This document shows positions 230 to 63,057 of a stretch of DNA of 64,000 bases, piece by piece. The first letter of the stretch is position 1. Each line of letters begins with the position of its first letter. The DNA is from Bacillota bacterium (GTDB lineage Bacteria; Bacillota; Negativicutes; CTSoil-072). Location of the stretch: NCBI GenBank assembly GCA_017889545.1, contig JAGFZV010000013.1, forward strand, positions 1 to 64,000. Direction: 5' to 3'. Under the pieces are notes generated by a model. It was not told where the DNA came from. It saw only the letters and a list, made by a program, of their open reading frames with translations, and did no database searches. The position numbers and the translations under genes are program-made.

Positions 230-327
230 TGGCGGGAGCGTGTAGGAATCGAACCCACCCAGGACGTAGTTAGCGCCCCGCAAACGGTTTTGAAGACCGC
301 AGAAGCCACCAGGCCCCATCCACCCCC
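230..327 (-). tRNA. selC: tRNA-Sec (anticodon UCA)
   Basis: The leftward strand holds a 98-nt tRNA with an encoded CCA end, a T-loop GGTTCGATTCC, an anticodon loop CTTCAAA giving anticodon UCA, and a long extra arm between the anticodon and T arms. The extended length and UCA anticodon are diagnostic of selenocysteine tRNA. The acceptor stem GGGGGTG pairs with CGCTCCC using wobble pairs. It implies that the organism decodes UGA as selenocysteine, so selA, selB, selD and selenoprotein genes should exist elsewhere; no selenoprotein is evident in this window. Confidence 0.93.
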
Positions 328-6736: not shown

Positions 6737-8608
6737 CTAGGCATGAATAGTTACGCCCGTGTCGTATAGCTTTCCTTCTAAAAGCAGTTTTACTTCATAG
6801 TTGCCGGATAATCCCTCTTTACTAATCATAACCGACGAATCAGCCGAACCATGTTGGAAAGTTCCGACGCATAAAGCCAACTCATCTTTCTCAGTTGTAG
6901 GTACCAAATATTTATGCGTGGAATTGTCCTCCCCAAAAAGAACTGCGACTACATAGGATCCTTCTGCAAAATGTCCAGTAATTTTCAGGCGGTCTTCTTC
7001 ATCGTAAATACTGACCTTGATTTCTTCAGGCAGCATACCCCGCGAAGTTTTTGGAAGTTTCATTCCAACCTCGCTTGTTACACCCAGCGTACCGAGTAGC
7101 TCTCCCTTGCCAAAAGTTAAAACATCGTCTTCACAATAAAGTTTCAGCTTTTCCGCACGATAATAAGCACCCGGTACTTTCATTTCGTACATCACCTGAT
7201 CATCCTTAACCTCAACGGTTATCGCATAATAAATCAAGTCTTTTTCTTCCGGTTTCCCCAAGTAAAAAACAGGCGGTTTGACGCACGGGACACCTTTAAT
7301 ATTACCAATGTCTCCGGAATGAACCATATAATGGCCTTCTGCGTAATATTCGACATTAGAGATGTGAGGGGCAAAAAATTCACTGCCGCGCTCTTTACCA
7401 TACTGCCATACCTGCGTCACTTTTCTGGTCTGTTTATCAATTCGGTAACGAACCCCCCGCGAAAACTTTTGTTCGGCAGGGATATCCTGATCTGCATATT
7501 TGCTTCTCCACGCTCCATTATCAAAAACAAAAACATCTCCGTCCGGGAGCAGCATGCCGGAATGCTGTGCATAAAACCAATCAAATTCTTTTTCACTATC
7601 CGGTGAGAAAAAGTACTTTTCGACGAATTCCTGCGGCCACTTGTTAGGGTCCCCAAGAAGCCAATTAATTTCGTCAGTGTCAAAATCAAAATTTGCAAGG
7701 ATATCTAAGTTGCGTCCTGAAATAGTAAGGCTGTTCGTCGCCTTATCATACCAAACAGAATTGGTATGTAACCAGTCATGGCTGCTGGACCGTGGTCCTC
7801 CTCCAGCATCACGGGGTAATATCGCTCTTAGATCCCAGGTTTTGATGATATTGCCTGTTTTGCGTTCAAGCATGACGCACATATCTTCGACAGTATCCCT
7901 GTCCATTTCTTCACTTAAGCAAACGAAATTCCCATCTTCCAATTCGATGGCATCATGGTGAATACCGCCAGGCATACGGTACTCGTTATAGATTTTGCCA
8001 ATCATCCCCATCTCATAGAGCCCCGTCATGACATAAGGCAATTTCAGCAATCGCTCCGTTCCGACAAGCAATCGTCCATTACGCAGGCGCTTGATATCAA
8101 AGATCAGATTGATTGTGGTGTACCAGCGCACGTCCCCATTTAGATCGTATGCAACAACCTTCCCTCCGGCAGAAGGGCTGAGAATCATAACATGATCTCC
8201 GAAGTATTCAGGAGTAGTTTCCATCTTTGAGGGGGTCTCTATTCCTTTTACAAGCGGATCCGTTTTTATCTGAATGATTTTTTGCCCACCACTGCCGAGC
8301 GTCAGCACAATCGTATTTAAATAATCCGCGTATAGGCCATAAACCGGGATTTGATGCTCAGTTGCAGCAGAAAAGCGAAACTTCATATCGCCGGTTTCAT
8401 CTTTTCCCTTAACGCAAATGCTCACGGTTTCTTCTTTATCCGTTTTAAATAGGATTAAAGCGGTTAATGGAGCAATGAGATAAGGATTTAAAACTACATA
8501 AGGATTCTCAAAGGTAAATGAAGCCGAATGATACTGAGACAAAAACTTACCTTCGGCTTCATGTTGTTTATTAATATAATGGGAATCGAACTGATAATCA
8601 ATTGACAT
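6737..8608 (-). CDS. Arylsulfate sulfotransferase family protein without signal peptide
   Basis: 623 residues matching the bacterial AssT architecture: an N-terminal beta domain (about 30-115, NPYxxAPLTA and QIPVYGLYADYLN) then a six-bladed propeller. Family enzymes move sulfate from one phenol to another through a sulfo-histidine. Candidate catalytic residues are His217/218 (GGIHHD), His277 and His281 (SSSHDWLHT), Arg299 (SGRN) and His349 (AQHSG). Enterobacterial AssT is periplasmic; here no signal peptide is present, and the frame upstream of the ATG runs to a stop without another ATG, GTG or TTG. RBS is AGGGGGG. First gene of an operon with a thioredoxin and its reductase. Confidence 0.87.
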   Translation of the reverse strand: MSIDYQFDSHYINKQHEAEGKFLSQYHSASFTFENPYVVLNPYLIAPLTALILFKTDKEETVSICVKGKDETGDMKFRFSAATEHQIPVYGLYADYLNTIVLTLGSGGQKIIQIKTDPLVKGIETPSKMETTPEYFGDHVMILSPSAGGKVVAYDLNGDVRWYTTINLIFDIKRLRNGRLLVGTERLLKLPYVMTGLYEMGMIGKIYNEYRMPGGIHHDAIELEDGNFVCLSEEMDRDTVEDMCVMLERKTGNIIKTWDLRAILPRDAGGGPRSSSHDWLHTNSVWYDKATNSLTISGRNLDILANFDFDTDEINWLLGDPNKWPQEFVEKYFFSPDSEKEFDWFYAQHSGMLLPDGDVFVFDNGAWRSKYADQDIPAEQKFSRGVRYRIDKQTRKVTQVWQYGKERGSEFFAPHISNVEYYAEGHYMVHSGDIGNIKGVPCVKPPVFYLGKPEEKDLIYYAITVEVKDDQVMYEMKVPGAYYRAEKLKLYCEDDVLTFGKGELLGTLGVTSEVGMKLPKTSRGMLPEEIKVSIYDEEDRLKITGHFAEGSYVVAVLFGEDNSTHKYLVPTTEKDELALCVGTFQHGSADSSVMISKEGLSGNYEVKLLLEGKLYDTGVTIHA

Positions 8609-18929: not shown

Positions 18930-20048
18930 TTACTTAAGAACAGCTTCAACAGGTGTATACTGCATGCCCAAGGCATCGGCAACCGCCTGATACGTCACTT
19001 TCCCGTTAATCACATTGAGCCCTGCAGCTAATCCAGGGTTATCCAGCAGTGCTTGACGGTAGCCCTTATTTGCGATTTGCAATGCATACTCCAACGTAGA
19101 ATTCGTCAATGCAAAAGTGGATGTACGAGCAACCGCGCCCGGGATATTGGCAACCGCATAATGCACCACGCCATATTTGGTATACGTAGGATTGCTATGC
19201 GTGCTCACATGGTCACAGGTTTCTACCGACCCCCCCTGATCAATCGCCACATCAACAATAACGGAACCAGGTTCCATTGTTTTTACCATATCCGCAGTAA
19301 CCAGTTTCGGAGCTTTGGCGCCCGGCACTAATACTGCCCCAATAAGCAAGTCGGCTTTTTTAACCCACGAGGCGATATTGTAACTGTTTGACATGACGGT
19401 AACAATCCTGCCGCCAAATAGATCATCGAGATACTGCAGGCGCGCTGCGGAACGGTCGATGACCGCCACCTGTGCTCCCATCCCCACCGCTACCTTGATC
19501 GCGTTCGTGCCAACAATTCCGCCGCCAATAATCACGACCTGCGCTGGTTCAACGCCAGGCACACCGCCCAGCAGCACTCCTTTTCCGCCATATGGTTTTT
19601 CCAGCAGCTGCGCCCCAATCTGGACTGCCATTCTTCCAGCAACCTCACTCATCGGCGACAGCAGTGGCAATGTATGATCCGTGCCGGTAATTGTTTCATA
19701 CGCAATACCAATTACTTTGTGATTGAGCAATGCCTTGGCCAACTCAGGTTCCGGCGCCAAATGCAAATAAGTGAATAAAATTTGCCCTTCATGAAAAAGA
19801 TCATATTCAGCCGGCAACGGTTCTTTGACTTTCATAATCATTTCCGCACGGGAAAAGATTTCCGCCTTATCCGACAAAATTTGCGCTCCGGCTTTTAAAT
19901 AACTTTCATCAGTAAAGCCGCTGCCAATTCCGGCATTACGTTCCAACAAAATCGTATGCCCCGCCTTATGCAGTACTTCAGCTCCGGCAGGAGTCAATGC
20001 CACGCGGTTCTCATTATCTTTGATTTCTTTTGCTACTCCAATAATCAC
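18930..20048 (-). CDS. ald: Alanine dehydrogenase
   Basis: 372 residues, the usual length. It interconverts L-alanine and pyruvate with NAD and ammonia. Visible features are the N-terminal [18 protein letters not shown], the substrate lysine region VKVKEPLP, the catalytic-histidine region FTYLHLAP, and the Rossmann motif [10 protein letters not shown] near 175. The GTG at 20048 is chosen because GGGGGG lies seven bases ahead and the family N terminus begins there; upstream in-frame ATGs add unrelated residues. Monocistronic, with its own terminator. Confidence 0.93.
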
Positions 20049-20164
20049 AAAAAATCCCCCCATCCAATATCTTTCGTCTCTCATACCATTTGATAGCAGC
20101 AATATTTTTTAATGAATATACATAATAAATATGCATAAAGCATGCCAATCGCTTTTTAAAAAAA

Positions 20165-20302
20165 TTGCATTCCTTCCTGTATGCGAGTTTTGAATTAGAA
20201 AGAAGTAGAAAACCAGCTAACGCAAGTCATTTATGTGATATTTCATTGATTGCAGAGAAAAATCGCGAAGCAGCATATAGAGTGCTAAAAGAAAAATTGT
20301 AA
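20165..20302 (+). pseudogene. Possible gene remnant, 45 codons
   Basis: A rightward frame with protein-like composition ending ISLIAEKNREAAYRVLKEKL (20 residues) and a stop at 20300-20302. It has no ribosome site and no ATG or GTG, only a TTG, and sits in the 334-bp space between ald and hypB. It may be the 3' end of a decayed gene or chance. Confidence 0.2.
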
Positions 20303-20341
20303 CGAAAAGTTTCCACCGTTTGGAAATTATTCGTTACAATT
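20295..20341 (-). terminator. Terminator of the folD-like/hypA/hypB operon
   Basis: A 12-bp perfect stem (20295-20306 with 20330-20341) encloses a second short helix (TTTCCA/TGGAAA). On the leftward strand the stem is followed by TTTTTCTTTT. It lies 42 bases beyond the hypB stop. Confidence 0.75.
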
Positions 20342-20382
20342 GGAATGATATGTTTCCATAAAAACAGCTATTCCGGCAGTAA

Positions 20383-21066
20383 TTATTTGCAGGCAGCGTT
20401 CACCGCTTTGAGCTGTTTTTTAGCGGCTACCTGTTCTTTTAACCAGTCATACCAAACAGTTAAACCTTCACCGGTACGACAAGACACCGGCAATAAGGTA
20501 ACGTGCGGGTTCAAACTGGTAATATCTTCAACAGCCGCTTGCATGTTAAACGAAGTGTAAGGCAATAAATCGGTTTTATTTAATACAACCGCACTGGCCT
20601 GTTTGAAAATCAGCGGGTACTTCAGTGGTTTGTCTTCGCCTTCCGTAATGCTCAAGACAGTCACTTTAACGTCTTCGCCGATATTGAACTCGGCCGGACA
20701 CACCAGGTTTCCCACATTTTCAATGACGATAAGATCCAGCTTATCCAAATCAAGACGATCGAGAACGCTCTGCACCATATCGGCATCCAAGTGACAGCCA
20801 CCGCCGGTATTGATCTGGATAACCGGCACTCCGTGGCCTTCAATCCTCTCAGCATCTTTGGATGTAAATAAGTCACCCTCAATGACGGCAATGTGGATCT
20901 CTTCTTTCAGCGCGGCAATCGTCTGTTCCAGCAAAGATGTCTTTCCCGAACCCGGAGATCCCATTAAATTCAACACAAAGATGCCCTGGCCGGATAGCCG
21001 GTGATGGACATGGTTCGCAATTTGATCGTTTTTATCCAGAATGTTGGCCATTACTTTAATTTCCAT
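20383..21066 (-). CDS. hypB: Hydrogenase nickel-insertion GTPase HypB
   Basis: 227 residues. P-loop GSPGSGKTS (36-44) and the metal-binding motif GGGCHLDADM (88-97, Cys91 and His92) of the GTPase domain are present, with NKTDLLPY as the guanine-specificity motif. It lacks both the N-terminal CxxCGC site and the histidine-rich stretch found in some HypB proteins. HypB works with HypA to load nickel into NiFe hydrogenase (and sometimes urease). The ATG directly follows the hypA stop. No hydrogenase structural gene is in the window. Confidence 0.94.
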   Translation of the reverse strand: MEIKVMANILDKNDQIANHVHHRLSGQGIFVLNLMGSPGSGKTSLLEQTIAALKEEIHIAVIEGDLFTSKDAERIEGHGVPVIQINTGGGCHLDADMVQSVLDRLDLDKLDLIVIENVGNLVCPAEFNIGEDVKVTVLSITEGEDKPLKYPLIFKQASAVVLNKTDLLPYTSFNMQAAVEDITSLNPHVTLLPVSCRTGEGLTVWYDWLKEQVAAKKQLKAVNAACK

Positions 21067-21408
21067 CTATTCAACCTCCAGGTGTTCTACTTTTAATTCC
21101 CGTCCCGACAGAATTTCAACTGCGGCCGAATTGCATTCCGGACAATAAAAGCGATAATGATCAATCGCAAATTCTCCGCCGCAATCCCGGCAGCGACCTG
21201 TCAAAGGTACGACAGTCACTTCCAACTCTGCCCCGGCCGCCGGCGTATCGGCCGCTAATGCCGTAAAGCAAAATCGCAGTGATGCCGGTTCTATTTCTGT
21301 CAGTTGTCCAACCAGCAAAGAAACCCGAAGGATTTTCGTTGCATCATTCTGGGCGGCAGTATTTAATGCTATATCAAGGATCCCCTGTGCAATCGCCATT
21401 TCGTGCAG
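21067..21408 (-). CDS. hypA: Hydrogenase nickel-insertion protein HypA
   Basis: 113 residues. The C-terminal zinc site CRDCGG...CPEC is intact. In HypA the N terminus is Met-His-Glu and His2 binds nickel. Here the only codon that gives that N terminus is a CTG at 21408, with AGGGGG eight bases upstream. A GTG at 21417 in the same frame would add three residues and sits almost on top of the ribosome site; the next ATG would lose His2. The CTG start is therefore preferred. The gene lies between a FolD-like gene and hypB, tightly packed. Confidence 0.88.
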   Translation of the reverse strand: MHEMAIAQGILDIALNTAAQNDATKILRVSLLVGQLTEIEPASLRFCFTALAADTPAAGAELEVTVVPLTGRCRDCGGEFAIDHYRFYCPECNSAAVEILSGRELKVEHLEVE

Positions 21409-21440
21409 AAATGCCACCCCCTATCGTATCTTACGTCTCT

Positions 21441-22286
21441 TCATTTGTGCAAAACCTCAAAGTCGCGTAATACAGCCTGCATTACCATAATCGTACTTAC
21501 AGCCCCGACTCCGCCCGGTACCGGTGTGATTGCCCCTGCCACTTTTACGACTTCATCGTAGTCTACGTCACCGACAATCCCGCTTTCGACTTCATTGATG
21601 CCGACATCGACCACCACAGCGCCAGGCTTTACCATCTCCGCTTTAACCAGCCGCGGATACCCCACAGCGGCAACAATAACATCCGCCTGACGGACAATGT
21701 CCGCTAGATTGACGGTTTTGGAATGGCATACCGTAACCGTAGCATTGCGGGAGAGCAGCAGATGAGTCATCGGTTTTCCAACGACATTGCTCCGCCCAAT
21801 GACTACCGCATGACGTCCGGATAATTCAATTCCATAAAAATCAAGAATTGCCATTACCGCACGCGGTGTGCTCGCGGCCCAAACGCTTTTCCCGGAAGCA
21901 AACAACCCCACATTATAAGGATGGATGGCATCTACATCTTTCTGCGCCAAAATCCCTTCACCGATAATATCCGCATTAATGTGCGCCGGCATCGGCATCA
22001 TTGGGATAATTCCATCAATATCCGGATCCGCATTTAACTTGTCAATCAACGCCAGCACTTCCTCTTGCGGCGTATCGGCTGGCAAATGGTATGGATGGGA
22101 AGCCATCCCGATAGATTTTGCCAATTTATCCAACCGGTTCATATAAATCCGCGATGCCGGATTATCGCCAACCATGATAATTGCCAAGCCACACGTAAAC
22201 CCTTTATCTTTCAATGCGGCAACTTTCGCTATTAGGTCCCCTTTTTCGGCTGCAGCTACTTGTTTGCCATCTAAAATAAGCGCCAT
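21441..22286 (-). CDS. folD: FolD-like methylene-THF dehydrogenase with altered cyclohydrolase residues
   Basis: 281 residues, full length for FolD. The dehydrogenase half is well kept: GRSNVVGKPM for dinucleotide binding and PVPGGVGAVST at the C terminus. Aligned by eye with E. coli FolD, Tyr50 is conserved (Tyr48 here) and Asp121 is kept in KDVDAIHP, but catalytic Lys54 is Leu52 and Gln98 of VQLPLP is Met96 (PMMPMP). PCTP is also changed to ASTP. In E. coli, Lys54 and Gln98 are important for cyclohydrolase activity, so this may be dehydrogenase-only. The ATG at 22286 has AGGAGG upstream. It leads the operon with hypA and hypB. Confidence 0.85.
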   Translation of the reverse strand: MALILDGKQVAAAEKGDLIAKVAALKDKGFTCGLAIIMVGDNPASRIYMNRLDKLAKSIGMASHPYHLPADTPQEEVLALIDKLNADPDIDGIIPMMPMPAHINADIIGEGILAQKDVDAIHPYNVGLFASGKSVWAASTPRAVMAILDFYGIELSGRHAVVIGRSNVVGKPMTHLLLSRNATVTVCHSKTVNLADIVRQADVIVAAVGYPRLVKAEMVKPGAVVVDVGINEVESGIVGDVDYDEVVKVAGAITPVPGGVGAVSTIMVMQAVLRDFEVLHK

Positions 22287-22453
22287 ACGATTTCCTCCTA
22301 GTATATTAATATTCGACAACCCAATATAAACTGTTCACTGCATCGGCACGCAACATCCACTGGTATTTTCAATATTAATTCGCTAGTTTTTATCAATTTC
22401 CTCCCCTCCAATTTTTTGCCCTGATAGCGGTATGGTTCACTCTAAACGAACCA

Positions 22454-22483
22454 GGGGCAATGCCGACGTTTCGGCATTGCCCC
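22454..22483 (-). terminator. Stem-loop after the GntP permease gene
   Basis: Perfect 13-bp stem (22454-22466 with 22471-22483, loop of four). It lies 33 bases after the permease stop. No T-run follows, so termination efficiency is uncertain. Confidence 0.55.
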
Positions 22484-22516
22484 CGTTGCTATTCTTTAAA
22501 AATGATCTAATTAGAT

Positions 22517-23911
22517 TTACACGATCCCAAAGACCAGGTATAGAACTACTGCTAAAAAAGCCATCGTTGTTTTGATGCACGTCATTGCAAAAATATCGGG
22601 ATACGATTCCTTATGAGTCAGACCGCAAACAGCCAACAATGTAATGATAGCGCCATTATGCGGCATTGTGTCTAAACCGCCAGAGGCCATGGAAGCAATC
22701 CGGTGCAATACATCTAATGGGACGTTTGTTGCGGCAGCCCATGCCATCCATTGCTTGGACATCAAATCCAAAGCAATTGCCATCCCGCCTGATGCCGATC
22801 CCGTGATCCCGGCAAGAGTTGTCACTGTAACCGCTTCGGAAAACAGAGGACCGTTTCCAATATGAAGACCAAGCATAGCGCCGGCGATCGCTTTAAAACC
22901 AGGCAAGGATGCAATAACATTGCCATAGCCAACCTCTGAAGCGGTATTCATAATCGCAAGCAATGAACCGATCGTTCCCACGTTGATAGCCTTTGCCACG
23001 CCACCTTTCGGCATGCGCTTTACACCGATTGCAACGGCAAGCGAAATACCACATACTAACCCGATAATCAAGGCCCATATGCTGACAACATTTTTAACTG
23101 CAGGAACCATCAACGGCAGCTTCATCCCTAAAAGCGGTGTAAGGAGGTCGGGGTTCCAGGTCATCGTATTGCCAATGTAGTTGACTACGAGTACCGTTAA
23201 TAAAGGCAGTACTGATAACTGCCAGGACGGAAGGTTCGTATCATCTCTTAACTCCGGCTCATTAATCTTGTGAACGCCATATCCCTCATTTCGGGCCAAG
23301 GCTCCTCCCACACGGCGTTTCAACCAGATCATACCAACGATAAAAATAACCGTTCCGGATATAATTCCCAAAAAAGGAGCTGCGTAAACGCTGGTTCCTA
23401 AGAAGTTGGTTGGGATAATATTTTGGATTTGAGGGGTTCCCGGCAAACAGTCCATTGTGAATGTAAAACCGCCAAGAACGATACACGCAGGGATAAAACG
23501 CTTTGGAATACCAGCTTCTTTAAATAAAGCCGCTGCAAACGGATAAACTGCAAAAACCACAACGAAAAGGCTGACTCCGCCGTACGTCAATATTGCGCAG
23601 GATAATACGGTAGAAAGAATAGCATGTTTTGGTCCAAGACTCTCAATGATCGAATGGGCAATGGATTTCGCCATTCCGCTGTCTTCCATAATTTTCCCAA
23701 AAACTGCACCCAGCATAAAAACGGGGAAGAAGGACTTCACGTATGTTACAGCTTTAGCCATAAACAGTTCGGTGTATGTAGGCATAATCGGCAAGCCTTG
23801 CGATACGGCTGCCAACAGGGCAAATATGGGAGCAAAAAATATTACTGAAAACCCTCTGTACGCAAAAAACATCAATAAGAACAAGCTAAGAAGAATACCA
23901 AATACTTCCAT
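22517..23911 (-). CDS. GntP-family permease
   Basis: 464 residues with about twelve to fourteen hydrophobic helices. It belongs to the GntP group of proton-coupled carriers for gluconate, hydroxybutyrate and similar hydroxy acids; SAGSASGGMAIAL-like and LDTMPHNGAII segments near the C terminus are typical of the family. The ATG at 23911 has GAGGAGG upstream. A MarR gene 740 bp away reads in the opposite direction, and several inverted repeats occupy the gap, so regulation by MarR is likely but inferred. The true substrate is unknown. Confidence 0.87.
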   Translation of the reverse strand: MEVFGILLSLFLLMFFAYRGFSVIFFAPIFALLAAVSQGLPIMPTYTELFMAKAVTYVKSFFPVFMLGAVFGKIMEDSGMAKSIAHSIIESLGPKHAILSTVLSCAILTYGGVSLFVVVFAVYPFAAALFKEAGIPKRFIPACIVLGGFTFTMDCLPGTPQIQNIIPTNFLGTSVYAAPFLGIISGTVIFIVGMIWLKRRVGGALARNEGYGVHKINEPELRDDTNLPSWQLSVLPLLTVLVVNYIGNTMTWNPDLLTPLLGMKLPLMVPAVKNVVSIWALIIGLVCGISLAVAIGVKRMPKGGVAKAINVGTIGSLLAIMNTASEVGYGNVIASLPGFKAIAGAMLGLHIGNGPLFSEAVTVTTLAGITGSASGGMAIALDLMSKQWMAWAAATNVPLDVLHRIASMASGGLDTMPHNGAIITLLAVCGLTHKESYPDIFAMTCIKTTMAFLAVVLYLVFGIV

Positions 23912-36712: not shown

Positions 36713-37921
36713 CTATTTCACAAGTCCTACTGTCGAAATAAACACTCCAGCTGTAATCGCGCTTACAATAACGCCACTGATATTCGCGCCCAGCGCCAAC
36801 GGCAAAATCATCGCGTAGGGGTTTGCTTCTTTCGCTGCATACTGAGCCAGCTTAGCGGTAGTGGGCATACAAGAAACACCAGCAATGCCAATCACCGGAT
36901 TGTAGTTTTTGCTAAACAAATATACCACCCAACCGCCGATGATACCACCGATGGCAGAAACCAACAGAGCCAAACAGCCTAAAATTACCAACAGACCGAC
37001 TTGGGGGTTCATCAAGGTCTGCGCATCACAAAGAACGCCGAGCAGCAATCCCAAGAACAGAGTAGATCCATAAAGAATCGTGCTTTCCAGCAATTTTTGA
37101 TACTCTTCAATTTGCGCTTCTCTAATCGCAACACCTAAAAAGAAGGACATGATCAGCGGAGCAGCAACGGGAAGAAGGAGGCACAAAACAAAGCACATCA
37201 GAACAGTAAAAATGAATTTTTGTTTTTTCGGCACATCCACATGTTTGATTTCCACTACTAAACCACGATATTTTTTTGGCACTAACAATTTGATCAAATA
37301 TGGGTATCCGGCATATGTCAGACTCAAATATAAATAAGCAATGATAGAAATCGGAACGAACAGTTTCGGCGCCAACATCAAGGATGTGAAAAGCACCATT
37401 GGGCCATCCGCGCCTCCAATAGTACCAACTGCCGCCGCCTCACCAATTGGCAGTCCCAGCTTGTAGCCAATAACCAGGGTGACAAACGATCCGAGTTCAG
37501 CAAATACCGCCACCGTCATACTGGCCCAGGGCCGGGCAAGCAAAAAACCGATTTCACTCATGGCCCCAATTCCAAAAAATACAAAACAGGCAATCAGTCC
37601 ATTACTAAACGTAAGATTATAGATTGGTTGAAGAAAATTGATCTGCATGATATTCATCAAAGCAGCCGGATCGGATACCAAAGGGTCAAGAAAAATATTT
37701 CCGATCCCGCCGCCTTGCATAAAGAGCACACCTGAATTGATCGCTATCATCCCAATTCCCATCGGGACCATAATAAGTGGCTCAAGTGTCCGGTTGTAAC
37801 CGAGGTATGCAAGCAAAAACCCAAACAAAATAAGAAAAATTCTCGCATATACAATTGCTGAATCCTGAACAAAAAAAGAAAAAATGCCCGGAAACAGATT
37901 TTGAGCAACGTCATAATACAT
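36713..37921 (-). CDS. mmdB: Sodium-pumping decarboxylase beta subunit (MmdB/OadB family)
   Basis: 402 residues with about nine to eleven membrane helices. Sodium-site regions GGADGPMVLFTSLMLAP (about 200-216) and GVSCMPTTAKLAQYAA with GANISGVIVSAITAGV near the C terminus are the family signatures. This subunit decarboxylates carboxybiotin and exports sodium. ATG at 37921 is preferred because the family N terminus starts there; its GGGAG site is somewhat distant. Last gene of the propionate operon, so the substrate is most likely methylmalonyl-CoA rather than oxaloacetate. Confidence 0.9.
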   Translation of the reverse strand: MYYDVAQNLFPGIFSFFVQDSAIVYARIFLILFGFLLAYLGYNRTLEPLIMVPMGIGMIAINSGVLFMQGGGIGNIFLDPLVSDPAALMNIMQINFLQPIYNLTFSNGLIACFVFFGIGAMSEIGFLLARPWASMTVAVFAELGSFVTLVIGYKLGLPIGEAAAVGTIGGADGPMVLFTSLMLAPKLFVPISIIAYLYLSLTYAGYPYLIKLLVPKKYRGLVVEIKHVDVPKKQKFIFTVLMCFVLCLLLPVAAPLIMSFFLGVAIREAQIEEYQKLLESTILYGSTLFLGLLLGVLCDAQTLMNPQVGLLVILGCLALLVSAIGGIIGGWVVYLFSKNYNPVIGIAGVSCMPTTAKLAQYAAKEANPYAMILPLALGANISGVIVSAITAGVFISTVGLVK

Positions 37922-37946
37922 TGATGGTTCAACTCCCGCACATAGT

Positions 37947-38072
37947 TTACTTGCTGAGCGACCTTTCAAATGCCTGCATTATTTTATTCGCAAATAAGAT
38001 AATCAAAACCGTAGAAAACGCAATTATCGCTGTCAGACCGTAGGAAAAAAAGAAATAGGTATAAATATCCAT
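37947..38072 (-). CDS. Small single-span membrane subunit, OadG N-terminus-like
   Basis: 41 residues: one membrane helix (about 10-30, YGLTAIIAFSTVLIILFANK) and a short basic tail. The ATG at 38072 has AAGGGGG seven bases upstream. It resembles the membrane anchor at the N terminus of OadG-type gamma/delta subunits, or the small epsilon subunit of Veillonella methylmalonyl-CoA decarboxylase. It lies between the biotin carrier and the beta subunit, consistent with a role in assembling the membrane complex. Confidence 0.65.
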   Translation of the reverse strand: MDIYTYFFFSYGLTAIIAFSTVLIILFANKIMQAFERSLSK

Positions 38073-38118
38073 TGAGATATCCCCCTTCTGGGCTAATACT
38101 ATTTCACCACAGGCAACA

Positions 38119-38532
38119 TTAGCTGAAAGTGACCAGGGGCTCGCCGCTCCGTACTGTTTGCCCGGCATGAACGCGAACATCGACAACTTGTCCATCTTCC
38201 GGGGCCAGAATTTCGTTCTGCATTTTCATTGCCTCAAGAACCAGAACTACTTCACCTTTTTTGACAAAGGCGCCCATAGTAAAATTCACCGCAACCACCT
38301 TGCCCGGCATCGGGGCTGCCAATGTTTTTGCGCCAGCTGATACTGAAGCGGAAGGCGTCTGCATCGCCGCAGCTGCGGGCGCCGACGCCGGAGCTGCAAT
38401 GCCGGTACGCGGTGATGGCATTACAGCAGCATTTGCAGCAGGTGCAGCAGGCTGGGCGGCAGCTGTGTTGCTAAGCCTTTCCACTTCGACTTCATAGGAC
38501 TGTCCGTTTAAAGTAATTCGAAATTTCTCCAT
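38119..38532 (-). CDS. mmdC: Biotin carboxyl carrier subunit (MmdC type)
   Basis: 137 residues: a short N-terminal domain (1-22), an alanine/proline-rich flexible linker (about 24-65) and a biotinyl domain (68-137) with EAMKM, biotin lysine Lys103. It carries CO2 as carboxybiotin from the carboxyltransferase to the beta subunit. AGGAGG precedes the ATG. Placed between the two OadG-like fragments. Confidence 0.92.
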   Translation of the reverse strand: MEKFRITLNGQSYEVEVERLSNTAAAQPAAPAANAAVMPSPRTGIAAPASAPAAAAMQTPSASVSAGAKTLAAPMPGKVVAVNFTMGAFVKKGEVVLVLEAMKMQNEILAPEDGQVVDVRVHAGQTVRSGEPLVTFS

Positions 38533-38564
38533 TATTTCGTTCCTCCTTTGCTGTTTTTTCTGTT

Positions 38565-38816
38565 TTAAAACATCTGCCGGCGATGATGCACGCTCTCATA
38601 ACGCCCCGCTTGCACCCAGGCTCTGCCGCCAATCGGCCGAATAACAGCAATTTCTGCAGGACTAACCCCGTATGCTGCAAGTGCTGCGGCAATCAGCACA
38701 AAAACACGAATGCTTTCTTCCTCCGATGCCGGCGCAGGTACGGAAGCCTCCTTGCCGCCCTCAGTCTGTTCCGTTTCTGAGGGTTTATGGCCAAATAAGT
38801 TTTTGAAGTTCCACAT
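38565..38816 (-). CDS. Decarboxylase delta-like subunit, soluble C-terminal domain only
   Basis: 83 residues. An acidic N-terminal stretch is followed by RVFVLIAAALAAYGVSPAEI and WVQAGRYESV, the C-terminal pattern of OadG/MmdD proteins that binds the carboxyltransferase. The usual N-terminal membrane helix is absent. GAGGTG lies seven bases before the ATG at 38816; a GTG nine bases earlier sits within the ribosome site. Family members also end with GRxxxM-like residues, here GRYESVHHRRQMF. Confidence 0.72.
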   Translation of the reverse strand: MWNFKNLFGHKPSETEQTEGGKEASVPAPASEEESIRVFVLIAAALAAYGVSPAEIAVIRPIGGRAWVQAGRYESVHHRRQMF

Positions 38817-38875
38817 GGACTTCACCTCATTTCAATTTGCGAAACAAAACGATGTAAGTGCTAGACGGAACGGAT

Positions 38876-39283
38876 CTATTTTCGTTCGGATAATTCCAGC
38901 AAGATGCCTCCAGTTGCTTTGGGATGAACAAACGCAATACTTGCCGCTCCGGCGCCATAGCGCGGCTCCTCATCAATCAAGCGGATCCCTTTCGCTTTTA
39001 AATCAGCCAGCGCAGCTTCAATATTGTCGACTCGCAGCGCAATGTGCTGGACCCCTTCCCCATTTTTTTCGATAAATTTGGCAATCGGGCCGTCCGGTGA
39101 AGTCGATTCCAATAATTCGATTTCGCTGTCCCCGCTCGGAATAAAACAAACTTTTACCTTTTGCTGTTCCACCACTTCTTCGCCTTGGACTGCCATGCCC
39201 AAAACTTCTGTATAAAATTTCTTGGCAGCTTCCATATCTTTCACAGCAATACCGATATGATCAATTTTTAAAACGTTGAACAT
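38876..39283 (-). CDS. mce: Methylmalonyl-CoA epimerase
   Basis: 135 residues of the vicinal oxygen chelate fold with two beta-alpha-beta-beta-beta modules. Metal ligands are visible as His in KIDHIGIAV (His9), the histidine in GVQHIALRV and the late glutamate in GGILLELSE. It interconverts (R)- and (S)-methylmalonyl-CoA, linking the mutase and decarboxylase steps. AAGGAGG precedes the ATG. Lies in the propionate operon between meaB and the delta-like gene. Confidence 0.94.
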
Positions 39284-39317
39284 GCGACAACCTCCTTGTT
39301 TTTTTGCAAAACCATCG

Positions 39318-40256
39318 TTAAATCAGATAAGCATCCAGTAAAGCAGCAACAACCGAGTAAGGATCCTGCCTGCGTTGTTCAATACTCGCAACCAAAAAAT
39401 CAAGCTCTCCGGAGGCTCTCATCTTCTCTGTTACCCGGCGGCTGATCTGTTCCTCAAGAAGCGCCAGCAGTTCATCCCGCGTCCGTTGGGTTCGCCGCAG
39501 CGCCAGTTCGCCGGATTCTTGCAGATATGTCCGGTGTTCCTCGATTTTTTCCATTAGTTCATCGATACCGACTCCCCTGCTGGCAATGGTCCGATTAACC
39601 GCCGGGCGCCATTTTACTTTGTTTTGATTTAAATCGAGCATCATTTCCAGTTCCGTATTCAATCGTTCCACACCATCACGGTCCGCTTTATTGATGACGA
39701 ACAGATCGCCGATCTCCAAAATCCCCGCTTTGATCGCTTGAATGTCGTCGCCTAAGCCGGGAACCAGTACGACAATCGTAGTATCCGCCGCTTTGACTAT
39801 ATCCACTTCCGATTGGCCTACGCCAACGGTTTCAATAAAGATGATCTCTTTGCCGGCCGCATCCATAATTTTGGCGGCGTCGGAAGTCTTCAGCGACAAC
39901 CCGCCAAGGCTTCCTCGTGTTCCCATGCTGCGAATAAACACACCGGGATCCATGGTCAATTCGTTCATCCGAATGCGATCGCCCAATATGGCGCCGCCGG
40001 AAAACGGGCTTGTCGGATCGACCGCGATAATCCCAACCGTCTTTCCGTTCTCCCGGTATTTTTTCGCCAATTTATCGGTTAGTGTGCTTTTCCCCGCCCC
40101 AGGCGGGCCGGTGATGCCGATAACATGAGCTTTTCCGGTATGAGGATAAAGTTTTTGCATGATCGAAAAAGCTTCTTCATATTCATTTTCGATCGCCGTT
40201 ATCGCTCGCGAAAGCGCCCGTGGCGAACCTGCCAACAATTCCTGGACAATATCCAC
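39318..40256 (-). CDS. meaB: Methylmalonyl-CoA mutase-associated GTPase MeaB
   Basis: 312 residues. P-loop GPPGAGKST (50-58), switch [21 protein letters not shown] and the NKAD guanine motif mark the MeaB/ArgK G3E GTPase family. It gates cobalamin loading and protects the mutase from inactivation. GTG start at 40256 behind GAGGTGG. Located immediately downstream of the two mutase genes. Confidence 0.94.
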
Positions 40257-40326
40257 TCAATCGCACCACCTCTATGAACTGCTGATTTTCCCAAACCAGC
40301 ACCGTGCCTTAATTTTATGCCGTTCG

Positions 40327-40719
40327 TTACTTTACATTTGCCTTGATAAACTCAATAATGTCCGATGTGGGTGTTCCGGGGGTGAAAACTTCTGCTACAC
40401 CCGCTGCTTTTAACCCCGGAATGTCTGCATCCGGAATGACTCCCCCGCCGATTAACAAAACATCATCCATTTTTTTTGCTTTCATCAATTCCAATACCTT
40501 CGGGAAAATGGTATTATGCGCACCGGACAGCAAGCTCAGCGCAATCACGTTGACGTCCTCCTGCAGAGCCGCTTCCGTGATCAGTTCCGGCGTTTGGCGC
40601 AAGCCGGTATAAATGACTTCAAAGCCGGCATCCCGAAGAGCGCGGGCGACAACTTTCGCGCCGCGGTCATGTCCGTCAAGACCCGGTTTGGCTACGAGTA
40701 CCCGAATTCGTTTTTCCAT
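40327..40719 (-). CDS. Methylmalonyl-CoA mutase small (cobalamin-binding) subunit
   Basis: 130 residues of a B12-binding Rossmann domain with the DGHDRGAK motif (DxHxxG; His is the lower cobalt ligand), a middle [10 protein letters not shown] (SxL) and C-terminal [10 protein letters not shown] (GG) motif. It completes the mutase whose catalytic barrel is encoded by the adjacent upstream gene. Split mutases of this kind occur in archaea and some anaerobes. GGAGG precedes the ATG. Confidence 0.93.
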
Positions 40720-40743
40720 CGTTATTCCTCCGATCTATTTCGT

Positions 40744-42390
40744 TTACAAGCTGATATGCGCTTCGTACTCACCGAATACCTTACGCAGTACGCCGCAAAT
40801 TTCACCCAGTGTTCCGTACGCTTTTACCGCTTCCAGAATAAAGGGCATGAGATTGATTTGTTCATCTTTTGCCGCTTCTTCCAGCGCAGACAGTTTTTGT
40901 GCCAGTGCGGCATTATCCCGTGTAGCGCGTAAGTTGGCTAATTTTGCTTTTTGCAGTTCGCCGACCGACGCGTCAATCCGCAAAAGACCTTCCGGCGGCT
41001 GTTCTTCCACTTGGAATTGATTGACGCCGACGATAATTCGCTGTTTTGTTTCGACTTCCATTTGCCATTTATAAGCGCTGTCCTGAATTTCCCGTTGAAT
41101 ATAGCCTTTTTCGATAGCGACGACTGCGCCGCCAAGTTCGTCAATCTTATGAATATATTCCCAGCATTCTTGTTCGATTTGGTTGGTCAAAGCTTCAATA
41201 TAGTACGAACCGGCGAGCGGATCGACAACATCGGCCAGGCCGCTTTCATAAGCGACAATCTGCTGGGTTCTGAGCGCCACGCGCACAGCATCTTCCGTTG
41301 GCAGCGCCAACGCTTCGTCTTTCGAGTTTGTATGCAGTGACTGCGTTCCGCCAAGAACAGCAGCCACAGTTTGCAAGGTAACCCGCACAATATTATTCTC
41401 CGGCTGCTGAGCGGTGAGCATGGACCCTGCTGTTTGCGTATGAACGCGCAGCATCCAGGATTTAGGATTTTGTGCGCCAAACCGTTCTTTCATGACTTTC
41501 GCCCAGACTCTGCGCGAGGCACGGAACTTGCAGACTTCTTCCAGGACATTATTATGCGCATTCCAGAAGAAAGACAGCCTTCCCGCAAAATCATCCACGT
41601 TGAGACCGGCTTTGATCGCTGCATCGACATACGCAATGCCATCGGCGATGGTAAAAGCGATTTCCTGTGAAGCAGTGGAACCGGCTTCGCGGATGTGATA
41701 ACCGGAAATGGAGATCGTATTCCATTGCGGGACATTCTGCGAGCAATATTCAAAGATATTGGTAATCAAACGCATAGAGGGCTTGGGAGGAAAAATATAG
41801 GTGCCCCGCGCCGCGTATTCTTTGAGAATGTCGTTTTGGATGGTGCCGTTCAATTTATCCGGCGAAACGCCTTGCTTTTCCGCTACGGCGATGTACATGG
41901 CCAGCAGAACCGAAGCCGGTGCATTGATGGTCATGGAGGTGGAAACTTTGCCGAGGTCAATTCCGTCGAACAGAATCTCCATATCCGCCAACGAATCAAT
42001 CGCTACGCCTACTTTTCCAACTTCACCTTCCGAAATCGGCTCATCCGAGTCGTAGCCGATTTGGGTCGGCAGGTCAAATGCACACGATAATCCGGTTTGT
42101 CCTTGTTCCAATAAATATTTATAGCGTTGATTGGATTCTTCGGCGCTGGCAAAACCGGCGTATTGACGCATGGTCCAGAAACGGCCACGGTACATGGTCG
42201 GCTGAACACCGCGCGTGAAAGGATATTCACCGGGAAATCCTAAATCAGTTTCATAATCCAGTTCTTCAATGTCCAAGGGTGTATATAGTCGATCATGCGC
42301 AAGATTTTTCCGTTCCGGCCGTTTCGCCAGTGATTTATCCACCTGGGCATCATAGGCCTGTTTTTTTGTTTTTAGTGTTTCATTAGCCAA
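40744..42390 (-). CDS. Methylmalonyl-CoA mutase large (catalytic) subunit
   Basis: 548 residues, the TIM-barrel part only. The substrate-binding [20 protein letters not shown] (about 61-80) and HNNVLEEVC / [19 protein letters not shown] regions are well kept. It isomerises succinyl-CoA and methylmalonyl-CoA by an adenosylcobalamin radical. The cobalamin domain is a separate protein encoded 24 bases downstream. In this operon the direction is probably succinyl-CoA to methylmalonyl-CoA during propionate formation. Confidence 0.93.
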
Positions 42391-42509
42391 TTTGCTTCCC
42401 CCTTTTACTTTTGCATATGATTAGCCGTCTATTTGTAAAACCAAATCGAAAAGCCGATATTTAAACCTTTTCACCATGAAGCTCTTCGTTAAGTTAATAA
42501 CAAACTCCT

Positions 42510-44021
42510 TCATTTCTTACATTTCATCGATTTCGTTTCCAAAAAACGAGTGTGCCAGGAAAGAGCTTCTGCCAGCAAATGCGGAGTATGGGCAAAATTG
42601 GTTGCCTTTTCCGCTCTTTGCAAGTAATCCATTAACATGGGCTGATAGTCGGGATGAGCGCATTTGTGAATAATCACGCGCGCCCGTTCCTTGGGGCTCA
42701 AACCGCGGACATCCGCAACGCCGCGCTCAGTAATGAATACGTCCACATCATGCTCCGTATGATCAAAATGCGAGCACATCGGTACAATCGAAGAAATATC
42801 GCCGTTCTTTGCAATCGAGTTACTGAAAAAAATACTCAAATAACCGTTGCGGGCAAAATCGCCTGACCCGCCGATCCCATTCATCATTTTCGTTCCCATG
42901 ATGTGGCTGGAGTTGACATGACCATAGATGTCGAATTCAATGGCTGTATTCATTGCGATGATCCCCAGCCGTCTCGCCACTTCCGGGCTATTGGCAATTT
43001 CCTGCGGCCTGAGTACAATTTTTGAACGGTATTCGTTCAAATGAGCATAAAGCCGCTTCAATCCTTCCGGCGAAGGAGTAAGGGAAGTCCCCGAGGCAAA
43101 GTCCAGCTTGCCTGCATCAATCAAGTCAAACATCCCATCTTGAATAACTTCTGTGAAAACTCGAAGATTTTGATAGGGGGAATGCACCATCCCTGCCATA
43201 ACCGCATTCGCCACCGATCCTACGCCGGATTGCAGCGGCAATAAGTTCTTCGGCAACCGTCCATGCTTGATCTCGAAGTTAAAAAAATCGATCAAATTTC
43301 CGCTGATCGCCTTTGCTGCATCATCAATTGCCGCCAATGGACGCACTGCATCCAGAATATCACAGGGCACGATATAAGTAATTTTATCTGCTCCGGCCGG
43401 AATATAGGGAGTGCCGATGCGGTCATCCACCTTGACAATCGGAATCGGCTGGCGATGGGGAGGATCCGCAGGAACATAAACGTCATGCATCCCTTCTAAC
43501 GCAAGCGGCTGGGCAGTATTGACCTCAACAATGACAATATCAGCATTCTGCACAAACGAGGCGGAGTTGCCCACGGAAGTGGTAGGAACAATATGTCCTT
43601 CTTCCGTGATTGCGCAAGCTTCAACAATGGCAACGTCAATCTTCCCGCCTAAATATCCATAGCGGGCCATTTGCGCCACATGGCTAAGATGCAAATCCAA
43701 ATACTGCACGCTGCCATTATTAATCAATTTGCGCAGCGAATCGTTGGTTTGATAAGGAAGCCGTTTATGGATCCCGTCCGCTTCCGCCAACGCTCCATCC
43801 AATTCTTTGCCTACCGACGCGCCGGTCCATAAATTGATTTGAAACTGTTCCTGTTTCATTCTTTCGGCTAATGCCAGCGGTACCGCTTTGGGATATCCGG
43901 CTGGAGTAAAACCGCTTGTCCCGATATTCATCCCCGGTTTGATGATTGCCGCCGCTTCTTTGGCATCGACAATCTTGGCATGCAGGTCTTTGTTGCGTAC
44001 ACGATCCTTAATGTCAATCAT
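42510..44021 (-). CDS. Acetyl-CoA hydrolase/transferase family CoA-transferase
   Basis: 503 residues of the Cat1/ScpC type. The C-terminal half has the catalytic-glutamate region AIEFDIYGHVNSSHIMG and GIGGSGDFARNG. Such enzymes swap CoA between propionyl-CoA or acetyl-CoA and succinate. At the head of the methylmalonyl-CoA operon the likely role is propionyl-CoA:succinate CoA transfer, saving the thioester for the next round. The ATG at 44021 is eight bases after AGGAG; a GTG six bases earlier is too close. Confidence 0.88.
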   Translation of the reverse strand: MIDIKDRVRNKDLHAKIVDAKEAAAIIKPGMNIGTSGFTPAGYPKAVPLALAERMKQEQFQINLWTGASVGKELDGALAEADGIHKRLPYQTNDSLRKLINNGSVQYLDLHLSHVAQMARYGYLGGKIDVAIVEACAITEEGHIVPTTSVGNSASFVQNADIVIVEVNTAQPLALEGMHDVYVPADPPHRQPIPIVKVDDRIGTPYIPAGADKITYIVPCDILDAVRPLAAIDDAAKAISGNLIDFFNFEIKHGRLPKNLLPLQSGVGSVANAVMAGMVHSPYQNLRVFTEVIQDGMFDLIDAGKLDFASGTSLTPSPEGLKRLYAHLNEYRSKIVLRPQEIANSPEVARRLGIIAMNTAIEFDIYGHVNSSHIMGTKMMNGIGGSGDFARNGYLSIFFSNSIAKNGDISSIVPMCSHFDHTEHDVDVFITERGVADVRGLSPKERARVIIHKCAHPDYQPMLMDYLQRAEKATNFAHTPHLLAEALSWHTRFLETKSMKCKK

Positions 44022-44118
44022 CAACACTTCTCCTATTCATAAAAAGCGCTCTTTCTTAAATTTCAGCCTAAATAGTTAAAGATGTACCAACTTACAATGG
44101 CACATCCTTCGTTTCCAA

Positions 44119-51142: not shown

Positions 51143-52000
51143 CTAAAATAACATTCGTTGGCCGGTAACCGGCTTATATGCATAACTCGTTTTTCCGCTG
51201 CTATTTTCAACTAATGTGCAAAGAGTTCCCAAAGAGGAAAGATCAACGCCAGCGGAACAGCCGTAGAGATTGGAAAGGGCTGCTGCGACTTCTTCCAAAG
51301 GCGCGTTTCCCGCCCGCTCACCAATTCCGTTTATGGTGGCACTCACAAGACGAATTCCGGCCCGGACAGCCGCCAATGTGTTCGCCGTCGCCAGGCCGAA
51401 ATCATTATGGGCATGAAATTCGACCGGCAATGGACAATGCTCTCGCAAATAACACATTGTGCGATATGTTTGAAAAGGCGTCAGACAGCCTATTGTGTCA
51501 GCATAACGGATTCGTACGGCCCCCATTTGGGCGGCCACATCCGCTACCCGCAAAAAGAATTCAATATCAGCGCGGGAAGCATCTTCCGCCCCGACAGATA
51601 CAACGCAGCCATAATGATTTGCCAAGTCAATACATTCTTGCAGCCTGCCAATAACCCATTCTTGACTTTGTTGAAACTTTACAGAAATGTGCAATTGAGA
51701 AACAGGCACCGAAATATGAACATGCGAAAAACCACAGTGGATCGACATTAGAATGTCCTGCCTGACGGCTCTATTCCACGAAACAACCGCAGCTTTCAAA
51801 TCAGAGCGCAGGATATTCCGGAGCGCTTGAAACTCGCTTCCACCCATGGCCGGCACCCCTGCTTCTATATAAGGAATGCCCGCCTGATCCAGTGTTTTTG
51901 CAATCAATAGCTTTTCGGCCGGCGAAAAGGCGATACCAGCTGTCTGTTCGCCGTCGCGCAACGTAGTATCGACAAATTGTACCGTCTCGGGAATCAACAT
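51143..52000 (-). CDS. nifV: Homocitrate synthase, NifV alpha-type (N-terminal half) subunit
   Basis: 285 residues with the catalytic barrel of the homocitrate/isopropylmalate synthase family: DTTLRDGEQTAGI near residue 13, EAGVPAMG, and HAHNDFGLATANTL with GIGERAGNAPLEEV for metal and acetyl-CoA handling. It lacks the C-terminal GIH..GKHSG region, which is in the preceding gene. Together they resemble the split NifV of Clostridium pasteurianum, with the same order (C-terminal part first). Homocitrate is a ligand of the iron-molybdenum cofactor. The ATG at 52000 follows the upstream stop by two bases. Last gene of the nif operon. Confidence 0.86.
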   Translation of the reverse strand: MLIPETVQFVDTTLRDGEQTAGIAFSPAEKLLIAKTLDQAGIPYIEAGVPAMGGSEFQALRNILRSDLKAAVVSWNRAVRQDILMSIHCGFSHVHISVPVSQLHISVKFQQSQEWVIGRLQECIDLANHYGCVVSVGAEDASRADIEFFLRVADVAAQMGAVRIRYADTIGCLTPFQTYRTMCYLREHCPLPVEFHAHNDFGLATANTLAAVRAGIRLVSATINGIGERAGNAPLEEVAAALSNLYGCSAGVDLSSLGTLCTLVENSSGKTSYAYKPVTGQRMLF

Positions 52001-52002
52001 CG

Positions 52003-53082
52003 TCAAAATCCCTCCGCCTGTTTCATCACACAATCCTGATAGAGTTTTTTCAATTGCCCATCAGTCAGCGGTGATTTTTGTTCTACCGCTACCTGCCGAA
52101 CCTTGGCCAGCAATCGTTCAGACTGAATTGCATCCAGAACCATATTTTCCTGTTTCAATTTTTCTTCAAGAGAAGTCTTGCCTGAATGTTTGCCGATAAC
52201 CAGACGGCGGGACAAACCAACTTCTTCCGGTGAAAACGCTTCATATAATTCCGGTCGTTTCAGAACCCCGGCAGTATGAATTCCGGATTCATGCGCAAAT
52301 ATATCCACTCCGATAATCGCTTTCGTCAATGGCGTTTTTATTCCGATGCAGTCCAAAATAGCATGACAGGGTTCCGCCAGTTTCGGCATTCGCGCAAACG
52401 ATGACGGAACAGCCCGCCGCGTCGCCATCACAATTTCTTCATGAGCGGCATGTCCACCGATCCCAATGCCGGCAACGGAGGCATTGACAATTTTTACACC
52501 GGCCTGAATAGCGGCAAGACAATTGGCCGTCGCTAAACCATACTGGTTATGAGCGTGAAATTCCAACGGCCAATCCACCGACTGCAGCAACTTCTCGAAT
52601 ACAGCGCTGGTAATGAAAGGGTCCAAGTTGCCATCTGCATCACAATAGATAAAGGATTGCACTTCAAAAGCGGCAAGTGATGCAAATAGATCGAGGAGTT
52701 CCGGCAAAGACAATGCCGACGCATTCCGAATCTCTACCGCTGTCTTCAATTTCAGGTTGTTGGCTGTGCGTAAAGCACGTACCAAATTTTCAGTCAAGCC
52801 AGTGTTTACGTGTTGCTCATACACTACGGAAATTTTTCTAAAGCCGGCCTTGTGGGCTGATTCCACTTGTTCAGAACAAGGACGGATCCGACCCCGCAAG
52901 GCATGAAAGTCTTGCGGAATTACTTTCTGTCCATAGTAAAGCCAATCATCCAGCCAAAGATCATAACCAGCAAAGGACATTTGCTCGAGTATTTCAAATG
53001 CCTTCACCAATTGCTTCCATGGAATACGCAGGTGCGCCGCTTCAGATAGTGTTTGGTCCCGCAATAAAATAGCATCCGCCAT
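52003..53082 (-). CDS. nifV: Homocitrate synthase, NifV omega-type (C-terminal features) subunit
   Basis: 359 residues. The N terminus keeps only a degenerate LLRDQTLSEA in place of DTTLRDGEQ, but HAHNQYGLATANCL and the C-terminal VDIFAHESGIHTAGVLK and GKHSGKTSLEEKL are intact; the latter are missing in the partner protein. This is the pattern of NifV omega in clostridia. The two chains probably form one enzyme making homocitrate from acetyl-CoA and 2-oxoglutarate. GGAGGGAG precedes the ATG at 53082. Confidence 0.84.
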   Translation of the reverse strand: MADAILLRDQTLSEAAHLRIPWKQLVKAFEILEQMSFAGYDLWLDDWLYYGQKVIPQDFHALRGRIRPCSEQVESAHKAGFRKISVVYEQHVNTGLTENLVRALRTANNLKLKTAVEIRNASALSLPELLDLFASLAAFEVQSFIYCDADGNLDPFITSAVFEKLLQSVDWPLEFHAHNQYGLATANCLAAIQAGVKIVNASVAGIGIGGHAAHEEIVMATRRAVPSSFARMPKLAEPCHAILDCIGIKTPLTKAIIGVDIFAHESGIHTAGVLKRPELYEAFSPEEVGLSRRLVIGKHSGKTSLEEKLKQENMVLDAIQSERLLAKVRQVAVEQKSPLTDGQLKKLYQDCVMKQAEGF

Positions 53083-53107
53083 GCGTCTCCCTCCAATTTC
53101 CCAATAC

Positions 53108-53749
53108 TTATAACTTTCCCACTCCGAATGCAGGATTATAAATAGTCACTACTGTTTCATTCGGACCCCGTTTTTCAATTTTACCCTGCAAACTCCCGCT
53201 GGTTAGTTCGCATTCAATCCATGGCGGAACATGGGTGCAGTCAATTTCCAACTCGCTAAATTCACGTCGGCGTAAAACGGGCATTAATACTTGTTTGGAG
53301 GTAATCCCAGTCCCGCTTGCCTGAATTTCCTTAACGGAAATTTGATAGCGCCCGTTGCCAAGAGAGGTGAGTTCGGGAAGAACCGGCTCGATCTGTTCTT
53401 CCCTTGACTGCCGTTGATTTTCTTCTTCCTGCCGCAATACTTCATCGATAAAATCGGCTGGCTGACCTGACATCTCCCAGACACTGCATTTCGCTTTTTC
53501 CAGTTCATAGTATAAAATTCCAGTAACAGCTCGGCCAACAAAAATCCGGCAATCACCCAAAAAATCGATCATCGCGCGAATGGATTGACGAAGCCCTTTC
53601 ACGCCCTGTGCATTGTTAATCGCGATCGTTATGCTTCTAACTTCCCGCCATTGACCGATATTCTTCTGAACGATACTGAGGCGGCATTCTCCTTCCAAGG
53701 ATGCCGTCATCCCATCTTTTCCAACCAGCATGCCAATCTGCAAACTCAT
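53108..53749 (-). CDS. anfO: AnfO-like nitrogenase accessory protein
   Basis: 213 residues. The first 120 match the AnfO family of Fe-only nitrogenase accessory proteins: LGDCRIFVGRAVTGILYYEL, an LEKAKCSVWEMSGQPADF stretch and a following acidic helix (FIDEVLRQEEE). The C-terminal 90 residues form a second, beta-rich part without a known motif. AnfO is found beside anfHDGK; here the operon encodes a Mo-type nitrogenase. ATG at 53749 preferred to one 27 bases upstream because it matches the family start. Its function is not established. Confidence 0.72.
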   Translation of the reverse strand: MSLQIGMLVGKDGMTASLEGECRLSIVQKNIGQWREVRSITIAINNAQGVKGLRQSIRAMIDFLGDCRIFVGRAVTGILYYELEKAKCSVWEMSGQPADFIDEVLRQEEENQRQSREEQIEPVLPELTSLGNGRYQISVKEIQASGTGITSKQVLMPVLRRREFSELEIDCTHVPPWIECELTSGSLQGKIEKRGPNETVVTIYNPAFGVGKL

Positions 53750-53776
53750 GGTCGTGCCACCCCTTCCTAACAACAA

Positions 53777-55359: not shown

Positions 55360-55375
55360 GTTGTTCACCTCCATT

Positions 55376-58107: not shown

Positions 58108-58144
58108 CACATCCTTCCAGGCCGATTGGCGGCCACACAATGTC

Positions 58145-59533: not shown

Positions 59534-59534
59534 G

Positions 59535-61148: not shown

Positions 61149-61194
61149 GCCATTTTACCCTCCCCTATTGCTCTGATCCATGACAAAACGTTTT

Positions 61195-61605: not shown

Positions 61606-61617
61606 CGCTTCGCCCTC

Positions 61618-61944: not shown

Positions 61945-61988
61945 AACTCCACACTCCTCAATTGTTATCGGTTCATATTGTTTTGAAA

Positions 61989-63057
<1,069 letters not shown>

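Follow-up and report, generated by a model that had tools for sequence, protein, structure and literature searches.

We analysed a 64,000-nucleotide stretch of DNA (the window) from a genome of the class Negativicutes, in which a folD-like gene (21441..22286, minus strand) is followed by hypA (21067..21417, minus strand), encoding a nickel metallochaperone (TIGR00100 above the NCBIfam cut-off, PF01155), and by hypB (20383..21066, minus strand), encoding the GTPase of nickel insertion (TIGR00073 above the NCBIfam cut-off, PF02492). The folD-like stop codon lies 23 nt from hypA, and 0 nt separate hypA from hypB. A strong hairpin of 15 pairs 3' of the upstream permease gene (22452..22485, minus strand; fold z −6.7) is a likely terminator and likely separates the three genes from those upstream. 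The likely terminator of the unit itself is a second hairpin, after hypB, whose tail is rich in T (approximately 20290..20345, minus strand; fold of 20270–20390, z −4.2). Since hairpins stand on both flanks, folD-hypA-hypB is likely to be one transcription unit, with co-transcription predicted from these features, in agreement with the operon proposed in an earlier note on this DNA. The upstream gene encodes a GntP-like permease (22517..23911, minus strand; PF02447) and, judged by synteny, sits in the slot where relatives carry fhs (often also polX). Downstream lies an alanine dehydrogenase gene (18930..20102, minus strand; TIGR00518 above cut-off), a neighbour that synteny shows to be common to several relatives.

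Elsewhere the window holds a nif cluster (51143–62816, minus strand) with nifH (61989–62816), nifD (59535–61148; its 537 aa exceed the 466-position model), nifK (58145–59566), nifE (56752–58140), a nifN-like gene whose best model is nifK (55376–56782), nifB (54085–55404) and two genes (51143–52033 and 52003–53082) that together encode a split homocitrate synthase. Propionate-type genes occupy 36713–44027 and include those for a Na+-transporting decarboxylase beta subunit (36713–37969), methylmalonyl-CoA mutase (40744–42390) and an acetyl-CoA hydrolase/transferase (42510–44027). There is also a gene for a 623-aa protein of the arylsulfotransferase (ASST) family (6737–8608, minus strand) and a tRNA-Sec gene with anticodon TCA (230–327, minus strand); the organism therefore probably makes selenoproteins.

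The folD-like gene starts with ATG behind an AGGAGG and encodes 281 aa. Both FolD domains score above the Pfam cut-offs (PF00763, E 1.2e-31, 109.8 bits; PF02882, E 2.1e-60, 203.1 bits), and an AlphaFold2 model (pLDDT 95.6) shows the usual fold of FolD, with a Foldseek TM of about 0.95 to the solved FolD 3P2O (3p2o_B), placing the protein in the FolD superfamily. Standard profile libraries label it 'bifunctional FolD'. An alignment of FolDs from many phyla bears out the residue reading of the earlier note. In E. coli numbering, Tyr50 and Asp121 are kept (Tyr48 and Asp119 of the protein) and the dinucleotide motifs GRSNVVGKP and CHSKT are intact, but Leu52 stands at the Lys54 site and Met96 at the Gln98 site. 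The residues of the dehydrogenase are thus retained and those of the cyclohydrolase lost, the combination expected of a dehydrogenase-only enzyme. Lys54 has been assigned as the general acid/base in cyclohydrolase catalysis, with Gln98 positioning it (PMC3338484). In E. coli FolD, the K54N form has undetectable cyclohydrolase and about 19% of the dehydrogenase activity, and Q98H keeps about 8% of dehydrogenase and about 1% of cyclohydrolase (PMC5688156). As both Lys54 and Gln98 are gone, no cyclohydrolase is predicted for the window protein. From Pfam, alignment and model we therefore assign it to a Lys54-less and Gln98-less subfamily (hereafter Lys-less) of predicted cyclohydrolase-free methylenetetrahydrofolate dehydrogenases. 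The dehydrogenase part of this prediction is open to one objection from the same mutants, which lose some dehydrogenase activity along with the cyclohydrolase: the protein might instead be a non-catalytic paralogue with a binding or regulatory role, or a pseudo-enzyme in the course of being lost. Its intact dehydrogenase residues and cofactor motifs argue against this, as do two observations on relatives given below.

The earlier note asked whether there is a second, canonical folD in the genome, and one is indeed present (G000:C38:193083-193895). Its product carries YVGRK (the YxxxK motif), VQLPLP and DKDVDGFH and is about 50% identical to the window FolD. This enzyme could cover both reactions, which favours a non-catalytic window protein. 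The window copy did not arise from it by recent duplication, and an origin from the genome's own canonical folD was rejected since the two copies fall on opposite sides of a split with support 100/99 in the tree described below.

Family- and order-level searches for relatives returned the window genome itself as the sole match, and a class-wide search found the motif YxxRLxK together with GILPMMP in many genera. A separate scan of named genomes, in which canonical FolDs dominated the matches listed, gave at least three Lys-less relatives, from Veillonella, Megasphaera and an uncultured Selenomonadales bacterium. Residues were counted in 172 distinct FolDs, 100 Lys-type and 72 Lys-less, sampled to cover almost all genera on the Lys-less side of the class, plus a canonical-side set. 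The proteins were sorted by the presence or absence of Lys, so that the information lies in the Gln loss that accompanies its absence and in the retention of the other residues. Gln occupies the Gln98 site in 99/100 Lys-type but 2/72 Lys-less FolDs, and this joint loss across the 172 argues that the residue change is not due to chance. The Lys54 site of the Lys-less proteins holds Leu (53), Met (12) or, in the others, Ala, Ile, Val or another residue, and their Gln98 site mostly Met (48), Leu (16) or Phe (5). All 72 retain Tyr50 and 71 retain Asp121, and Lys56, Thr140, the Pro-Gly-Gly loop and the dinucleotide motifs are kept almost without exception.

Conservation at two of these positions might suggest that the window FolD is still bifunctional, another residue having taken over the cyclohydrolase chemistry: the Lys56 equivalent is Lys in 71/72 and Arg142 is present in 62/72 Lys-less FolDs. 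However, the Lys56 site is mostly Lys or Arg in canonical FolDs as well, so that no replacement is apparent there, and E. coli K54N keeps Lys56 and yet has no detectable cyclohydrolase (PMC5688156). Together with the distribution of FchA given below, this leaves a bifunctional window enzyme improbable in our view.

For the tree we removed the two motif regions and left out one long-branch sequence (G295). The Lys-less FolDs, with the FolD of G290, split from the canonical FolDs, both those of this class and those from other phyla, with support of 100/99, and the window FolD falls in a subclade with those of G288, G292, G293, G306, G307, G313 and G317 (98/92). An earlier quick tree that included the motif columns also set Lys-less and Lys-bearing proteins apart, with weaker support. 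Lys-less FolD is a separate, well-supported subfamily found throughout the class Negativicutes. The FolD of G290 (L267:8288-9193) keeps Lys54, has Glu for Gln98 and is encoded directly next to fchA; given its grouping with the Lys-less side, it may be an intermediate. The omitted G295 protein (L213 / L268) is very divergent: it retains Gln98 but has Gln in place of Lys54 and Glu in place of Asp121, and its genome has three FchA copies.

In the one pair of relatives with unsaturated dS, dN was 0.043 and dS 0.26 (dN/dS about 0.16); in two other pairs dS was saturated and dN was 0.06–0.08. Lys-less folD is under purifying selection and is therefore not decaying. Recent decay of a duplicate was rejected, the substitutions being old and fixed across many genera and dN/dS low. 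This selection is the first observation against a non-catalytic protein. The second is that the Lys-less enzyme is the only FolD in 22 of the 24 genomes first examined, where it should be an active dehydrogenase unless a non-homologous enzyme has replaced it. Taken with the intact active site, these make a non-catalytic role for the window protein quite unlikely, even with a canonical FolD at hand.

If the Lys-less enzyme lacks the cyclohydrolase, another protein would be expected to supply that step, and a pairing of a dehydrogenase-only FolD with FchA calls for an FchA-family protein in the same genome. The window genome encodes one (G000:C7:54058-54600; PF04961, E 6.8e-58), for which cyclohydrolase and cyclodeaminase are both possible, and its presence, like the E. 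coli mutant data, fits the dehydrogenase-only prediction of the earlier note. An FTCD_C/FchA protein was present in 24/24 of the genomes first examined that have a Lys-less FolD. Across the class, a hand tally gave 145 genomes with Lys-less FolD only, 232 with canonical FolD only and 3 with both; for almost every Lys-less genus the assignment rests on residues read in one genome or more, and for the remaining genomes on family. By the same hand tally FchA was found at E < 1e-40 in 139/145 Lys-less-only versus 21/232 canonical-only genomes (34/232 of the latter at E < 1e-20). Five of the six Lys-less-only genomes without FchA are 60–82% complete; the sixth, G037, is an exception, at 92% completeness. 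That nearly all genomes with a Lys-less FolD have FchA argues further against a bifunctional enzyme. The correlation itself traces back to one or two evolutionary events, and an independent-pairs test has 1–2 pairs and no power; since FolD type changed only once or twice, the association with FchA is statistically inseparable from shared ancestry.

Gene order points in the same direction. At 18 of 20 loci (the window and 19 relatives), the gene immediately upstream of the Lys-less folD is fhs. The only fhs of the window genome is elsewhere (C41). In other genomes, including G001, G085, G313, G317, G352, G353, G363 and G373, fhs adjoins fchA, which fits a formate-to-methenyl-THF branch. Proteins of the FTCD_C family also include formiminotetrahydrofolate cyclodeaminases. 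The FTCD_C genes of G313 and G317 adjoin formiminotransferase genes, and a cyclodeaminase role is therefore possible there. We looked for a histidine-degradation cluster around the FchA-family gene of the window genome and found none; FakA, DegV and Tex genes flank it and are uninformative on its role.

The earlier note also saw in the unit with hypA and hypB a hint of a link between one-carbon metabolism and hydrogenase maturation. We find hypA-hypB after the Lys-less folD at 5 of the 20 loci, those of the window, G306, G307, G313 and G288. These five genomes span four families, and all encode genuine NiFe hydrogenase large subunits. In G306 and G307 a gene for a hycI-family hydrogenase maturation protease stands between folD and hypA, giving the order fhs-folD-hycI-hypA-hypB. 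The HycI-family genes of this arrangement in two relatives (L030:7410-7874 and L031:8632-9096) overlap the Lys-less folD by a few bases. The recurrence of folD-hypAB in hydrogenase-bearing genomes and the terminator-bounded unit of the window favour a role dedicated to the maturation of hydrogenase, such as directing one-carbon units toward the NiFe CO ligand in an anaerobe; so does the open question of the anoxic CO source (PMC12134894). However, the adjacency is confined to the one subclade (98/92) and is missing from two hydrogenase-bearing genomes, G293 and G317, and most other relatives match the NiFe hydrogenase family only weakly, over its first ~67 positions, or not at all. Co-occurrence with NiFe hydrogenase and a conserved hyp adjacency, the marks of a hydrogenase-maturation accessory gene, are thus not what the subfamily displays. 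Moreover, CO synthesis is described as needing HypX under oxic conditions (PMC12134894), HypA and HypB insert nickel, not CO, and Fhs and the canonical FolD already provide for 10-formyl-THF. With adjacency in a single subclade and many relatives without a clear NiFe hydrogenase, the position of hypAB therefore appears to be local gene order and not a functional link, and as a general explanation the hydrogenase link was rejected because the subfamily is common without a clear NiFe hydrogenase. The proposed link thus found little backing, fhs being by far the more frequent neighbour, and we regard a dedicated maturation role as very improbable. The same slight probability attaches to a narrower version, in which fhs-folD was captured beside hycI, hypA and hypB in the hydrogenase-bearing subclade because maturation depends on a folate one-carbon unit, which could, for instance, be the anoxic CO source.

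Residues, predicted fold, co-occurrence, gene order and purifying selection together make it highly probable, in our judgement, that the window FolD is a dehydrogenase-only enzyme, probably working with NADP(H), and that FchA carries out the cyclohydrolase step. The enzyme would interconvert 5,10-methylene-THF and 5,10-methenyl-THF and would be barred from the cyclohydrolase step by the replacement of Lys54 and Gln98 with Leu and Met. FchA, encoded elsewhere in the genome, would interconvert methenyl-THF and 10-formyl-THF, and Fhs would make 10-formyl-THF from formate. In the window genome the protein would be a second dehydrogenase beside the bifunctional canonical FolD, probably the partner of the Fhs/FchA formate branch, with hypAB as putatively co-transcribed neighbours sharing no mechanism with it. 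The earlier note would have dropped this reading for a sole folD with cyclohydrolase activity; that overlooks the case common in relatives, where the Lys-less enzyme is the only FolD and FchA supplies the cyclohydrolase. If this assignment is right, 'bifunctional FolD' is the wrong name in many genera of Negativicutes, including Veillonella, Megasphaera and Sporomusa, whose proteins standard profile libraries would label 'bifunctional' too, and metabolic models should give the cyclohydrolase step to FchA. The Lys-less FolDs also provide a natural sequence set in which the cyclohydrolase residues are gone and the dehydrogenase residues fixed. Such a division of labour between FolD and FchA is of a known kind; the extent of cyclohydrolase-residue loss in the class, under the 'bifunctional' name, seems not to be spelled out in the literature searched.

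Several known systems can be set beside the window FolD. It shares the fold and the dehydrogenase and dinucleotide residues of the canonical bifunctional enzymes (E. coli 1B0A, Campylobacter 3P2O and human MTHFD1), but these need Lys54 and Gln98 for the cyclohydrolase, and both are replaced in the window protein. The yeast enzyme MTD1 (1EDZ) is a monofunctional NAD-dependent dehydrogenase without cyclohydrolase. The comparison with it drawn in the earlier note holds for the predicted function and not for descent: the match is partial in length, with E 5e-6, and the two are likely of independent origin. The FolD of Clostridium perfringens, as Aluri et al. reportedly found in 2016, is a dehydrogenase only and needs FchA. 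With its separate FchA and its Fhs that system is functionally like the one proposed here, but the window genome has a canonical FolD in addition. In Sporomusa-type genomes fchA adjoins a Lys-less folD, which in G303 encodes the only FolD and lacks both Lys54 and Gln98. In Sporomusa ovata fchA (SOV_14190) likewise adjoins folD (SOV_14200) (PMC12780646), and we infer that its FolD resembles the Sporomusa-type Lys-less protein. The cytoplasmic fraction of S. ovata has an NADP-dependent methylene-THF dehydrogenase activity of 33 U/mg (PMC7483475), an activity of the cell extract that matches the dehydrogenase predicted for the window enzyme. The fchA-folD pair of Sporomusa, part of a Wood-Ljungdahl cluster, and the window gene lie on the same side of the large subfamily split and have both lost Lys54. 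They differ in that the Sporomusa FolD belongs to a separate subclade, with Ala and Phe where the window protein has Leu and Met, and in that folD adjoins fchA in Sporomusa and hypAB in the window.
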